Origin: Sulfurimonas sp.
Lineage (GTDB): Bacteria > Campylobacterota > Campylobacteria > Campylobacterales > Sulfurimonadaceae
Assembly (NCBI GenBank): GCA_030949825.1
Contig: JAUZSC010000009.1
Location: 35,896-99,895, forward strand
Direction: 5' to 3'
DNA length: 64,000 nt
In this document: positions 43,975 to 51,767 of the stretch, one piece after another
How positions within the stretch are numbered: the first letter of the stretch is position 1
How the letters are laid out: each line of letters begins with the position of its first letter
Translations under genes and position numbers: made by a program
Notes under the pieces: model-generated
Database searches by the model: none
The model's input: only the letters and a program-made list of their open reading frames with translations
What the model was told of the DNA's origin: nothing

Positions 43975-43993
43975 TGATTTTTATAAATCACTA
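43972..43993. terminator. Bidirectional terminator shared by convergent genes
   Basis: TAGTGATTT-TTAT-AAATCACTA. Confidence 0.65.
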
Positions 43994-45906
43994 GCTCGAA
44001 GTGTTAGCCCTTTTAGGTTACTAATAGGATACGAATAAGAAATCCCATCTCCTTCTCCTGTTATATCAAGCTCATTCATAATGTTTTTAACCATAGCTTC
44101 CACTTTTTTAGTAGGTGTTATAAACATAAGGTTTGAGTCAGTAGAATCACTTTGAAGTCTGTTGTAAAAATTGTCCATTTCTTCAAGTCCCATACCGTGT
44201 GCTTTCATGATGGTAACACCTCTTGCTCCGGCTTCTTTTGCAGCTAAAAGTGCTTTTTCTTCTCTTTCGTGTGGTACTATAACATGGACAGCGGAAAACT
44301 GCATTTTATAAGAATGACGCTTGTCTGTTCCTTGAACTTTTACGGTTGAGAGCCCCATATTTTCAGCATCTACTAAAGCATGGCGCAATTCATCAAGATG
44401 CACCTCTTCTTTTTCATGTTGACCCATAACACCCATTCTTTCTGTGATAACACCGTATGCCATAACTGTTATCATGGGAAAAAGAGATGCAAAGGCTATA
44501 AGACCAAAACCATCTATGAGAGGATCTCGTCCTGGTATATTTGTGGCAAGACCAAGACCGAGTGCTGCCACAAGTGGGACTGTTACAGTTGAAGTTGTTA
44601 CACCCCCGCTATCGTAAGCGATAGGAACAATATACTTGGGAGCTATAAATGTTAATGCGATTACAAAAACATAACCAGCGATGATGTAGTAAACAATATC
44701 TCCACCATTTACAATTCTAAATGTTCCTAAAAATAGACCAATAGACACACCAAAAGCAACCGCAATACGAAGAACGAAGTCGTTGATTTTTCCATCACTA
44801 ATCTCTTTTGCCTTTCTGGCAATTGCCGTAAGAGAAGGTTCTGCCATGGTAGTTGAAAAACCAATAGCACCAGCAAAAGCGTAGATAATTACATTGCTAT
44901 CGTTTTGAGTGAGTTGAAAAGCCATCGTTTCACCAAGTGAGAAAAGACCCATTTCAAGACCGATAATAAAAGCATCTAAACCAATGATAACAAGACCAAA
45001 GCCGATAAGTACTTCTTTTAAATTATCAATCGGTTTTTTTAAAATTATATATTGAAAAAATAAGATAATTCCCAAAATTGGAACTACATCCATTACCACT
45101 CCAGCAAAACCTTTAACAAGATTTATTAAACTAAAGTCAAAGGCACTTGCTGTTTCAGCGGTGTGTGCTGCGAGTGGCATTACAATATCAGATGTTTCTA
45201 TAAACTCGTAAACATAGATGCCATAAAACTGAACAAATATCATAGGAGTGAGTGAGGCAAAGGCAATAAGACCAAAGCCATCTAAAACAGGATTTCGACC
45301 CTTGATAGTAGATGCTAGACCAATCCCAAGGGCTGCAACAAGTGGTACGGTTACAGTAGAAGTGGTAACGCCACCAAGGTCAAAGGCGAGTCCAACGATT
45401 TCTTTAGGAGAGAAGTATGTGGCCGCTACTACTAAAATATATCCTGAGATAATGTAGTAATGAATTGGATGACCTTTTATAATCCTCCAAACGCCAACAA
45501 CTATGGCAAAACCAACAGAAAATGCGACAACCATTCTAAGCGTAAATGCGTCGATTCGACCAGCAGATATACCTGCTGCTTTATCGGCTATAACAAGTAA
45601 TGCAGGTTCGGCAACGGTTGTTCCAAAGCCTATCATAAAGGCAAAAAGAACTATCCAGCCTGTAGAACCTTTTCGAGCAAAGTCTCCAGCAAGACCTTCT
45701 CCAACAGGAAAAATTCCAACTTCAAGACCAAGAAGAAAAATAGCAAGACCTATACCAACGATAGCTAAACCAATGGTAGTACTAAGCCAGTTATCTGGAA
45801 TAACTTGAATGATTGCAAGTTGAAAGAATACGATAACGAGAATAATAGGAAGTAAATCTCTAAATGATTCTTTGAGGAGTTTTAAAAATGATGCTATGCT
45901 TAACAC
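43981..45906 (-). CDS. Tandem DUF1538 membrane protein with a C-terminal PII-like domain
   Basis: Two homologous membrane halves ([18 protein letters not shown] / [40 protein letters not shown]) followed by [31 protein letters not shown]. Confidence 0.85.
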
Positions 45907-46221: not shown

Positions 46222-46309
46222 GGTTCAGTGTCCGAGTGGTCTATGGTGTAACCTTGGAAAGGTTATGTAGTTTATTCTACCGCGGGTTCGACTCCCGCCT
46301 GAACCTCCA
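46222..46309 (+). tRNA. tRNA-Ser (anticodon GGA)
   Basis: Acceptor GGTTCAG/CTGAACC, anticodon stem TAACC-TTGGAAA-GGTTA, variable arm GTAG/CTAC, T-arm GCGGG-TTCGACT-CCCGC, encoded CCA. Confidence 0.9.
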
Positions 46310-46329: not shown

Positions 46330-47261
46330 CTATCCGAAAATACTTCTCCCTTTAATATTATTACTTTTAACCACATTAGAAATGTATGTTTTTTGAGTAA
46401 CAATACTATCATTATGACCAAGTAATCCACTAACAACTGTTATACTTTCTATATCACTATGAATAAGGTTAGTTGCAAACGTGTGTCTCAAGTTATATAG
46501 CCTTCCCTCTGGTAATCCAACATACTTCAATACTTTCTTATACATCCAATCTAATTGTCCAGCACTTGTATATTCAGTGAAGTATCGGTTCGTGAAAACC
46601 CAAGTCTCACTTCCTGAGATTTCTTTTTGTGCTATGAGTGCATCCATCGCTTCTTTTAATATAGGAATAGTTCTAATTGAAGATGCTGTTTTTGGTTTGC
46701 CTATATCTCCGTTACGAATTCTTCTATTTACTGATACAGTTTGCTCTTCAAAGTCAATGTCCTGCCACTGCAATCCTATGACTTCCCAGAACGCAAACCG
46801 CTGCCTATCATAAATAAAAATATGTTCTTGAACATACCTCTCTACACAACTCAAAAGGACAGAACCCCTTGTTTATGGGGTTGTAAAAATATAAGTTAGG
46901 AAATAACGGCTAATCAAGTCAATTGAACTCAAATACTACAGTTGTTTTTACCATAAAGTTTATATTTCCATCCATTTATAAGAAAAAGGCTTAAAAAAAC
47001 AATACATTGATATTGAAAATATCAATATTTAACTTAATAATTTCCTTAAAGTGCTCAAAATAGGCTTTTAAAGCGTAAAATATTTGTGTAGAGAGCTATG
47101 GTTCTTGAACTGTTTTCTGATTCTACTATCCATAGCTCTAGTAACATCAGCAATAAAACCGTCAAGTCCGTCAATAACTATTTTTATTTCATCGAGTGTT
47201 AAAAAGCTTACTGGTTTATTCCCTTTTTTACTTTTTCTTGGAACTTTTACTGCATTAAGAG
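46330..47261 (-). pseudogene. Tyrosine recombinase (integrase) remnant, in two pieces
   Basis: C-terminal part 46330-46854: LYNLRHTFATNLI, LGHNDSIVTQKTYI, with a G-run frameshift (GLRSGEVIGLQW restored). Minus strand near 47075-47261 reads NAVKVPRKSKKGNKPVSFLTLDEIKIVIDGLDGFIADVTRAMDSRIRKQF. Confidence 0.75.
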
Positions 47262-47856: not shown

Positions 47857-47866
47857 ATGGTATAAT
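47857..47866 (+). promoter_or_regulatory. Extended -10 promoter
   Basis: ATGGTATAAT: TGn plus a perfect TATAAT hexamer at 47861-47866. Confidence 0.55.
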
Positions 47867-47872
47867 TACAGA

Positions 47873-47996
47873 ATTAAGACTAAGTGAAGTGAAAATATGG
47901 GAATTCATATACTTCGTACCCTTGGAAACTTCGGTTTCAGAGTAGGTTGGTACGGCAGAGATGTGGGGTGCTTCCCTCCCACCACTTAGTTTTTTA
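47873..47996 (+). ncRNA. Candidate structured small RNA (contains a 30-codon ORF at 47897-47989)
   Basis: ACTAAGTG (47879-47886)/CACTTAGT (47983-47990); ATATG/CATAT hairpin; CGTACC/GGTACG enclosing GAAAC-TTCG-GTTTC; GTGGG/CCCAC; ends in a T-run. Confidence 0.5.
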
Positions 47997-48387
47997 TATA
48001 CTCTTCAAACATTATCTTAGATTTTTCATTAAAAAATTTCATACTATCTTGACACTTTATTAACTGTCTAATACTTGGTTTAAATATTGTTGATAGTTCA
48101 TTATGGTAATTATTTACAGATATTCCATACATCAAATAGCTGTCCTCATAGTAGGTTATAAAGTTAGTAATGCCATCTTGCTTATAGATGCAAGAAGCAA
48201 TTGTTGTATTGAGGAACTCTTGAAATTTATACTCATAAATATACTCTGCTTGTTCAGAATGGTTTTGTTGAATTTTTTGAGCTTTCTTCTTTGAGATAAC
48301 TAATTTGTTTTCATTGAAAGTATTTCTGTAATGGTGGAGTATCCCAGAGGTTATAATACCTAAAAATATTCTGTTTTTACTTCCCAA
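47986..48387 (-). CDS. Hypothetical protein
   Basis: 133 aa ORF; no recognised motif. Confidence 0.5.
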   Translation of the reverse strand: MGSKNRIFLGIITSGILHHYRNTFNENKLVISKKKAQKIQQNHSEQAEYIYEYKFQEFLNTTIASCIYKQDGITNFITYYEDSYLMYGISVNNYHNELSTIFKPSIRQLIKCQDSMKFFNEKSKIMFEEYIKN

Positions 48388-48845
48388 TATGAACCCTTAA
48401 TATATATTTGAAATTATATCTAATTTCTTCATAGTCTGATTGGATAGATTAAAGTTAGGACAGACGACGACAATACACCTAAGCAAGAAATATTGAATGC
48501 GTTAGTCACGTTATTTTACTTGTTTGTGTGTGTGAGTAGAATTTGCGTTTGTGCATCAGCATAAAGCGTTATAAGAAAGAATAGGGCTCCATACTCATTT
48601 TACATTCTTTTGAAGCATATAGAGGAAATATGGCTATAATTAGTGTAATATTTAGCTCAATAAGAGTAAGTGACACAGCGTTGGTCTCTCAATAAACACA
48701 GTGTGCTTTTTAGGAGTATTTAACACCTCTTAAATGTCGTTGTATAGGCAAGTGTAGAGGTTTTGAGCCTCTTAAATCAGAATTGGTGTGTCAGTAGATT
48801 TACCCCTGTGAAACCTCGTAATATAGGGGTTTAGTAAGGGAAAAT

Positions 48846-48873
48846 GAGAGTTCGAATCTCACCGAAACCACCA
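48846..48873 (+). pseudogene. 3' fragment of tRNA-Ser
   Basis: GAGAGTTCGAATCTCACCGAAACCACCA; CGAAACC complements GGTTTCG at 46023-46029; no matching tRNA 5' half directly upstream. Confidence 0.75.
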
Positions 48874-49377: not shown

Positions 49378-51315
49378 GTGTGCCAAGCAAAGCTAAGGCA
49401 ATCAAGCTGGACAATCCAGCTCAGGTAAAGATTAGCCATCAGCCTGAAACCAAACTACACATATTAGGCGGTAACAAATAATATGAAGCTGTAGTAAGGG
49501 CAGTCTATCAGCCACAATGCTTCGGCGTGAAGGTGTTGAGCCCCGTAATATTTATCGTCACACCTGACCAAAGTCTTCATTTACTGGAAGTCAGCATTTA
49601 TATAAGCGAAATTAAAAAGTGTTTTTCTAGTTTTTAACACTAGCCCAATAAAAGAAGAAAAGGTTAGCTTATACAAGAGGTGTCGGGGTCTAAGTCCGTA
49701 GCGGGTAGATGAATTGATTGTTTTGGAACTTGGGAGAGCCTTGTGATTTCTGAATGTTATGCCTAGAGCCGAAGAGGTTAGGGTGTAATTTCACAAGGCA
49801 GTCGGATTAATCCATAGTAGAGGTGTAAATAGGGTAATGCCTATTGAGGTTGAAATAAACCACTCGAAGGGATTAACAATTTAATGTAAGGAGGTAACTT
49901 AACAATGTCAAACTCGGAGTTGAATAACACTTTGTATAAATTATCTTCTCTATCAAAGTGTGCGAAAGAGAATAAAACATTTCAGTTTGAGAGCTTAGCT
50001 CATCATCTAAATGTAGAGTTCCTAAAAGATTGCTACAACAACCTTGCTAGAAACAAGGCAGTAGGAATAGATAAAGTAAGCTGGCAAGATTATAATAGTA
50101 ATTTGGATGAAAATCTGAGAAAGCTAGTGCAAAGATTGAAAAATAAATCTTTTAGACCACTTCCTGCAAAAAGAGTGTATATCCCTAAAGGGAATGGTGA
50201 AACAAGACCCTTAGGAATTTCAACTATTGAAAATAAGATAGTAGAGAGTGGTATATCACAAATATTGCAAAGTATCTATGAGATGGACTTTTAGATTGCT
50301 CTTATGGTTTTAGACCAAAAGAAATACACATCAAGCACTTAACCAAATAGATACAACTATTATGAGTAAACCTGTAAATCATATTGTAGAAGCAGACATC
50401 AAAGGTTTCTTTGATAATGTAAACCACAATATGTTGATAGAGTTCCTAAATATTAGAATAAAAGACAGTAGTTTGATATTTCTAATAAAGAGATTTCTAA
50501 AAGCAGGATATATTGATGATAATCTACTTATTAAAACAGATGTAGGTACTCCTCAAGGAAGTATCTTAAGTCCACTATTAGCTAATATATTTTTGCACTA
50601 TGTTTTAGATACTTGGTTTGAAAAAGAGGTAAAAACACATATCAGAGGATACTGCGAACTTGTTCGCTACGCCGATGATTTCGTATGCTTAGTTCAATAT
50701 AAAGATGATGCTAATAAAATAGTATCAGCACTATACAAACGATTTAACAAATATGGATTAACGCTACATCCTGATAAAACAAGAGTCTTCTCGTTTGGTA
50801 GATTTGAAAGAGGTAACTCTCAAAATCAAAATCGTAAAGCCAATACATTTGACTTTTTAGGTTTTACTCACTTTAGTGATAAAACAAGAAAAGGATACTT
50901 TAAAGTAGGGCGAAAAACAGCAATGAAGAAATTTAGAGCTAAAATAAAAGAGTTGAATATTTGGTTAAAACAGATAAGAAACTTAGTCCCTACAAAAGAG
51001 TGGTGGAAAATACTACAAGCTAAACTAAGAGGACACTTTCAATACTATGGAGTAAGTGGAAACTTCCCATCTATTAAAAGGTATTACTCTTTAGCTTTAA
51101 AAATGGTTCATAAATGGTTAAATCGTAGAAGCCAGAAGAAAAGTATGAGTTGGAGTAAATTATATAATTACTTAACTCTATACCCACTTCCACAACCAAG
51201 TATAAAACATAATTTCTACACTTTATCTCATGAGTTTGTGAGTTAAATTGAAGAGCCGTATGAGGGAAATCTTCAAGTACGGTTCTGTGAGGGGCATTCT
51301 GCACCTCCGAAATAT
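49378..51315 (+). mobile_element. Group II intron (3' boundary approximate)
   Basis: 5' GTGTGCC; about 530 nt of non-coding domains before the RT ORF; domain V GAGCCGTATGAGGGAAATCTTCAAGTACGGTTCT at 51253-51286; domain VI-like hairpin after it. Confidence 0.88.
49905..51246 (+). CDS. Group II intron reverse transcriptase/maturase, two frameshifts
   Basis: ORFs 49905-50294 and 50362-51246; YADD box (RYADDFVCLV), GTPQGSILSPLLANIFLH, maturase domain X; joined EMDFLDCSYGFRPKRNTHQALNQIDTTIM after correcting two runs; no HNH domain. Confidence 0.88.
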
Positions 51316-51335
51316 TAAATTAAATAAAAAGGAGG

Positions 51336-51767
51336 GTGGCGATGTCTACTCTACACAAGAAAATATTACTAAAAATAGTTTTATCTTTAGGACTTCTTCT
51401 AGCTTTTAGTGCGTGTTGTGACTCCAAAGATGAAGAAAAAGAAGCTGTGAAAATAGACAACACAAAAGTTTTAAAAATGGTTTTAAATGTGCAAGGAATG
51501 ACCTGTGAGGGTTGTGAAGCTACTATTCAAAACAATGTTTCAAAGCTCGCTGGTGTTGTGAGCGTAAAAGCTTCTCATGTAGATAAAACTACTACAGTTG
51601 ATTTTGATACAACACAAATAAGTGCTGCCCAAATTGAAAAAGTGATAATAGAAACCGGTTATAAAATCATATCAACTCCAGAGGGAAGTGATGAAAATGA
51701 GAGTCCTAAAGTTGCACCAAAGTCAGTAATGAAATGTGGCGAAGGTAAATGCGGTCACGCTGAGTAA
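51336..51767 (+). CDS. Lipoprotein with heavy-metal-associated (HMA) domain
   Basis: Lipobox-like LAFSACC; GMTCEGCEATIQNNVSKLAGVVSVKASH; C-terminal CGEGKCGHAE. Confidence 0.85.
   Translation: MAMSTLHKKILLKIVLSLGLLLAFSACCDSKDEEKEAVKIDNTKVLKMVLNVQGMTCEGCEATIQNNVSKLAGVVSVKASHVDKTTTVDFDTTQISAAQIEKVIIETGYKIISTPEGSDENESPKVAPKSVMKCGEGKCGHAE

Follow-up and report, generated by a model that had tools for sequence, protein, structure and literature searches.

A divergent skipping-rope RNA beside a predicted BECR-fold ribonuclease in Sulfurimonas: a probable type III-like toxin-antitoxin pair

In classical type III toxin-antitoxin (TA) systems, the RNA is encoded upstream of the toxin, with one promoter and a terminator in between (PMC5086642). 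The abiF motif RNA (RF03085) neutralises the neighbouring toxin AbiF by direct binding (PMC12373285), and a decoy function has been shown for the pseudo-ToxI of phage PhiTE (PMC3475682). On the protein side, the BECR/PBECR fold consists of an N-terminal helix followed by a sheet of 4-5 strands, with a histidine in the helix and a threonine or serine in a late strand; MuF-C belongs to the PBECR clade of the BECR ribonucleases, in which the active site is made up of the helix histidine and a C-terminal threonine or serine (PMC5512222). A pseudoknot is depicted in Rfam 14 for the skipping-rope RNA family, RF02924 (PMC7779021), for which no function was stated in the literature found, the original 224-RNA survey and preprints being outside the search.

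The locus described here lies in a stretch of 64,000 nucleotides of a Sulfurimonas sp. genome (GCA_030949825.1, contig JAUZSC010000009.1, positions 35,896 to 99,895), which is called the window below. An initial annotation of this DNA had proposed a compact structured RNA with its own promoter at 47857-47996, and left unmentioned an ORF for a protein of 133 aa that converges on it and whose stop codon overlaps the RNA 3' end. The features of the locus are the following.

46222-46309, plus strand: tRNA-Ser (GGA), found with ARAGORN, beside the integrase fragment
46330-46854, minus strand: phage-integrase catalytic-domain fragment (Pfam PF00589, E = 2.1e-14); mobile context, not part of the pair
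47858-47866, plus strand: putative extended -10 promoter element TGGTATAAT of the RNA, seen in the sequence; a TATAAT/TACAAT-type element lies upstream of the RNA in the homologs inspected
47879-47990, plus strand: skipping-rope RNA (RF02924), assigned by Rfam match, covariation and homologs above the cutoff
47879-47886 with 47983-47990, plus strand: P1, the closing stem
47889-47893 with 47904-47908, plus strand: P2, GUGAA/UUCAU in homologs
47914-47920 with 47949-47955, plus strand: P3
47963-47967 with 47978-47982, plus strand: P4, GTGGG/CCCAC
47899-47903 (GGGAA) with 47972-47976 (UUCCC), plus strand: loop-loop pseudoknot
47990-47995, plus strand: U-run 3' of P1, probable intrinsic end of the RNA, seen in the sequence; a T-rich stretch follows P1 in homologs too
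47897-47989, plus strand: 30-codon ORF within the RNA, not conserved and judged incidental
47986-48387, minus strand: protein of 133 aa with a TTG start followed by GSKNRI, predicted BECR/PBECR-fold ribonuclease (conservation beside the RNA, AlphaFold2, Foldseek)

The minimum-energy fold of the window RNA has -36.9 kcal/mol and z = -2.1, with 5 of 200 shuffles equally good; since this stability is only moderate, folding energy by itself speaks weakly for an RNA, and the minimum-energy structure differs from the conserved one. The proposed RNA was borne out by covariation in homologs. In an alignment of nine homologs, counted against P1, P2, P3, P4 and the pseudoknot between the P2 and P4 loops, 98.9% of cells were paired, and the compensatory base changes on which the initial annotation had staked its RNA were found, both sides having changed in 15 of 31 pairs, pseudoknot included. 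None of 500 shuffles matched the observed level, and slid controls were 43-53% paired. P1, P2, P4 and the pseudoknot covary. The loop-loop contact also co-varies over 20 sequences including those of phages (GGGAA/UUCCC, GGAC/GUCC, GGGC/GUCC, UGACC/GGUCA, GGU/ACC, GGC/GCC), with a mean complementary length above all 2000 re-pairings of the loops. This covariation is decisive evidence for the RNA structure. Most of the originally described parts, namely the extended -10, the closing stem, CGTACC/GGTACG with its GAAAC-UUCG-GUUUC hairpin, GTGGG/CCCAC and the T-run from 47990, are present in the sequence, the hairpin tip being confined to the window and one close relative. The inner ATATG/CATAT stem had to be given up: it is not conserved, and homologs keep GUGAA/UUCAU instead, with the loop GGGAA pairing with UUCCC.

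The element had also been described as not belonging to a known RNA, which proved wrong in name. The Rfam covariance search called for at the outset matched RF02924 over its full length (model positions 1-80 of 80; E = 0.00036 in 16 kb), at 32.1 bits, which is below the gathering score of 36.7. Homologs from the same genus with the same partner protein reach 41-47 bits, above the gathering score, and two from other genera reach 42-43 bits; the window RNA is thus placed as a divergent relative of RF02924 through this chain of homology and not through its own score. On comparative grounds, the window element is a genuine structured RNA, a divergent skipping-rope RNA, in a Sulfurimonas genome, and the named records with relatives of both the protein and the RNA are likewise Sulfurimonas. 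A consensus scan found no sigma-70 site at 47858-47866, so that it is the conserved extended -10 on which the promoter assignment is based. A weak skipping-rope match of 26.8 bits, with well-pairing P1 and P4, was seen at L004:1255-1320 on the minus strand, antisense inside a DNA methyltransferase/restriction-like ORF.

The 30-codon ORF that had been pointed out in the same stretch exists as a reading frame (MGIHILRTLGNF...), open and with an ATG in the window. In L059, the nearest relative, a stop follows after 9 codons; many homologs have no counterpart ATG, and the sequences found elsewhere are unrelated. Short of a peptide confined to this strain, it was rejected as a functional product, for which the probability is close to nil.

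The convergent protein has counterparts in the same place in relatives, with a TTG, GTG or ATG start followed by GSKNRI and 37-82% identity. A profile search of 135 Sulfurimonas genomes gave protein matches in 15, a few of them weak; the RNA model, run separately on the same genomes, gave seven RNAs, every one in a protein-bearing genome and abutting the protein gene. Among the Campylobacterota the RNA adjoins every intact copy of this protein type that was seen, and pairs of both were found beyond the genus, in other families of the order (L101, L103). In a divergent subfamily (L061, L062, L064, L071) the RNA is visible by eye, with P4 and the pseudoknot covarying; the RNA model search did not detect it in L062, L064 and L071. 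L103 is intermediate, with a P3 of the divergent and a P4 of the usual type. The dN/dS ratios of 0.05-0.14, from pairs in which dS is high, indicate purifying selection on the protein. Its GSKNRI N-terminus is invariant within the Sulfurimonas family, and all 11 sequences compared share H43 and T100.

Searches of Pfam, PHROGs and PADLOC with the Sulfurimonas protein gave no informative match. An AlphaFold2 model built from six sequences (pLDDT 84.5, pTM 0.80) has a helix at 33-42 and strands at 62-66, 73-80, 83-91 and 96-102, with H43 just past the helix; these elements and the invariant H43 and T100 correspond to the BECR/PBECR fold as described above. Among viral models, Foldseek placed a phage minor capsid protein at the top (E = 1.1e-6, TM 0.68) and MuF C-terminal domains next. 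Against solved structures it returned only insignificant matches, some of them BECR-type toxins, and a PDB sequence search likewise gave nothing significant. The protein is accordingly presented as a predicted BECR/PBECR-fold ribonuclease, in which the conserved H43 and T100 would fit a plausible BECR active site.

A second lineage of partners was found in phages. On viral sequences a strict RNA pattern gave no matches and a looser one 38 contigs, four of them real by Rfam; searches of phages and plasmids at the DNA level with the window RNA or L003 gave no match. Two of the phage contigs to which the RNA pattern led (L017, L022), and likewise five S. suis prophage records, have a PBECR3-type gene immediately before the RNA and in the same orientation. 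The phage partners match PBECR3 (PF18812) with E values of 1e-18 to 1e-24. In a first protein-led search the RNA was present at all nine viral PBECR3 relatives whose records include the 3' flank, four further records that end at the gene being outside this count. Nine more loci came from another protein search with a wider reach, and the RNA was present in every one of them; this set was out-of-sample, taken after the hypothesis had been formed. Each of the 18 viral PBECR3 genes whose 3' flank is sequenced is thus followed on its own strand, after 6-70 nt, by a skipping-rope RNA. Named hosts of these contigs are Streptococcus and Enterocloster (Firmicutes). The RNA is single-copy at the loci except for L092 (1887-2132) and L106 (1939-2125), where two tandem copies follow one PBECR3 gene. 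In a single case (L037:6313-6915) the gene that precedes the RNA, by about 120 nt, is PemK/MazF-like (PF02452, 24.6 bits, cutoff 23.1), the PemK/MazF-like fold being that of classical type III toxins; a search for relatives of this gene returned only L037 itself.

The AlphaFold2 model of PBECR3 has the same order of helix and strands and the same best Foldseek match as the Sulfurimonas protein, with MuF-C among the next matches. The profile comparison between the two is weak (hhalign E = 0.027, probability 1.8%), and their kinship therefore rests on the predicted fold, the common active-site pattern and the common RNA. Since the Sulfurimonas protein is below the PF18812 cutoff, which the phage partners pass, we class it as BECR-like rather than as PBECR3.

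The RNA is obligately linked to BECR-fold proteins (fold predicted) in two lineages with opposite gene arrangements, at loci that are not fully independent, some relatives being close. The arrangement bears on how the RNA may act. An antisense (type I) antitoxin pairing with the 3' end of the protein mRNA, which the RNA overlaps in Sulfurimonas, would agree with the convergent layout in Campylobacterota, which makes the RNA complementary to that end; the overlap with the coding region amounts only to about the stop codon, however, and the phage RNA, on the same strand and downstream of PBECR3, allows no such pairing, so that this explanation is highly improbable. Hardly better are the prospects of an RNA that acts in cis on the protein gene, as its 3' UTR or terminator, which would suit the phages, where the RNA comes directly after PBECR3 and is often followed by T-rich sequence. 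In Campylobacterota, however, the RNA is convergent and has its own promoter element, RNA-only copies exist, and P2, P4 and the pseudoknot covary, a covariation that would not be needed in a plain terminator. Neither antisense pairing nor cis control can be the mechanism in both lineages, given a convergent RNA in the one and a same-strand, downstream RNA in the other; a trans-acting, protein-binding RNA can. As the partner has a predicted ribonuclease fold, inhibition as in type III systems and AbiF/RCd22 is the most likely role of the RNA.

At several loci the RNA has remained and the protein has not. The RNA is intact and the protein lost or broken in L005, where only a vestige (MGSKN) is left, in L006 and L100, with possible C-terminal remnants recognised by eye, in L064 and L071, where the 5' part of the protein gene is gone, and in L102; both are damaged in L063 and L067. 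An intact protein without the RNA was not seen among the loci examined. The RNA is also carried by the Enterocloster phages CB457/CB473, MissC, Javan308 and the satellites Javan99 and Javan256, in none of which PBECR3 was detectable by tblastn, and in sequence the orphan MissC copy is almost the same as the RNA that accompanies PBECR3 in L112/L113. Such RNA-only loci would fit what an antidote leaves behind, and an RNA with a role of its own would fit too. In one genome (G470) the protein gene seems to be split over two contigs (L065 and L071), suggesting an insertion, and the RNA is intact.

These observations also enter the assessment of two further explanations. An independent role of the RNA, such as that of a phage or island sRNA, with the nuclease gene as passenger cargo of the same mobile elements, would account for several phages and satellites in which the RNA occurs and PBECR3 does not; cargo accumulates among mobile-element genes, and such genes surround the pairs. 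The association seems too tight for this, with at most 70 nt between RNA and gene at all 18 PBECR3 loci, all seven Sulfurimonas RNAs abutting the protein and orientations that differ, and we regard this explanation as improbable. Somewhat more credit, as an unlikely but serious alternative, is due to an RNA serving as activator, guide, obligate cofactor or preferred substrate in an RNP in which the BECR-fold protein acts on foreign or host RNA. Obligate linkage and co-conservation fit any RNP partnership, and the RNA is structured and single-copy at most loci, unlike classical type III antitoxins. However, it outlasts decayed or absent proteins, as an antidote should and a cofactor should not, and the homolog alignment showed no variable segment that could be a guide.

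The surroundings of the pairs point to mobile elements. Integrase genes adjoin the L003 and L009 pairs, and streptococcal pairs lie at prophage ends next to lysis genes. An RNA with its own promoter in a mobile context, as initially annotated, is supported by the covarying fold, by the extended -10 in the inspected homologs and by the integrase genes beside several copies. No direct repeat of the tRNA-Ser end was found that would mark the other end of the island. At 48840-48871 the window has a stretch like a tRNA 3' end (GAGAGTTCGAATCTCACCGAAACCACCA) outside any full tRNA, possibly an attachment-site remnant, with no exact partner in the genome. Further along, at 49411-51354, lies a group II intron (RF02005 at 49411-49698 and RF00029 at 51251-51354), whose reverse-transcriptase-like ORF is apparently split (49905-50294 and 50362-51246), and a DUF1538 membrane protein fused to a P-II-like domain is encoded at 43981-45906 on the minus strand.

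Taken as a whole, the evidence suggests a toxin-antitoxin pair with the skipping-rope RNA as its antidote. The reading of the locus as a two-gene, type III-like TA cassette, in which the RNA restrains a BECR-fold ribonuclease, is given a probability of roughly three in four. The tentative mention of a toxin/antitoxin-type RNA in the initial annotation agrees with the obligate partnership with a protein of predicted BECR, ribonuclease-like fold. For this pair we infer ribonuclease activity, toxicity, direct binding, neutralisation and a triggering condition, as follows. The protein (47986-48387, minus strand) would be a BECR-fold ribonuclease that cuts cellular RNA when free. The RNA (47879-47990, plus strand) would be transcribed from its own promoter, terminate at its own U-run and fold into a compact shape locked by the loop-loop pseudoknot; it would bind the protein and block it. 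With the loss of the RNA, through loss of the element or a phage shutting off transcription, the protein would be released. It is a possible, though doubtful, extension that skipping-rope RNAs are widespread RNA antitoxins of BECR-fold ribonucleases in at least two bacterial lineages, and that the phage and satellite copies without a nuclease are decoys disarming the nuclease of the host or of a rival element.

The proposal offers a function for an Rfam family for which none was found stated, names its protein partner, and predicts a protein-RNA TA pair based on a fold that many bacterial toxins have and for which no link to an RNA antitoxin was found. A literature search joining 'RNA antitoxin' and 'BECR' returned only a review of type II systems; priority is uncertain, the original survey and preprints being outside the search. 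If true, the PBECR3 family would gain a biological setting, and the carriage of skipping-rope RNAs by phages would be explained.

In comparison with known families and systems, the window RNA shares with RF02924 the full length, the same stems, the conserved AGAGAUG junction and the loop-loop pseudoknot, and differs in its sub-threshold score, its longer P3 branch and the tie to a specific protein partner described here. Of the phage nuclease families PBECR3 (PF18812) and MuF_C (PF18819), the former contains the partners found in phages; the Sulfurimonas protein matches the MuF-C/PBECR fold structurally, whereas its family has no Pfam match and an invariant GSKNRI N-terminus. Like the pseudo-ToxI of PhiTE, the RNA-only copies in Enterocloster and Streptococcus phages are antitoxin-like RNAs without a toxin, but a decoy role has been demonstrated for PhiTE, whereas for them it is a suggestion. 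The AbiF/RCd22 system (RF03085) is similar in that a motif RNA from comparative genomics, located beside a small RNase-type defence protein, proved to neutralise a toxin; AbiF, however, is of HEPN type, its RNA is upstream with two motif copies, and sequence and fold are unrelated. The type III systems (ToxIN, CptIN, TenpIN) likewise link an RNA, often pseudoknotted, to a small endoribonuclease in a phage or mobile-element setting, and linkage of the RNA gene to a small ribonuclease-type protein gene (protein fold predicted) is seen at all intact loci. In contrast to them, the RNA follows its partner gene in phages and converges on it in Campylobacterota, where it has a promoter element of its own, it is single-copy, with two copies only in L092 and L106, instead of a tandem-repeat antitoxin, and the toxin would be PBECR3 by Pfam or BECR-like by predicted structure and not of the MazF/Kid-like ToxN fold. 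Because gene order, repeats and toxin fold all differ, the pair would be a new variant that works like type III and not a member of that type.
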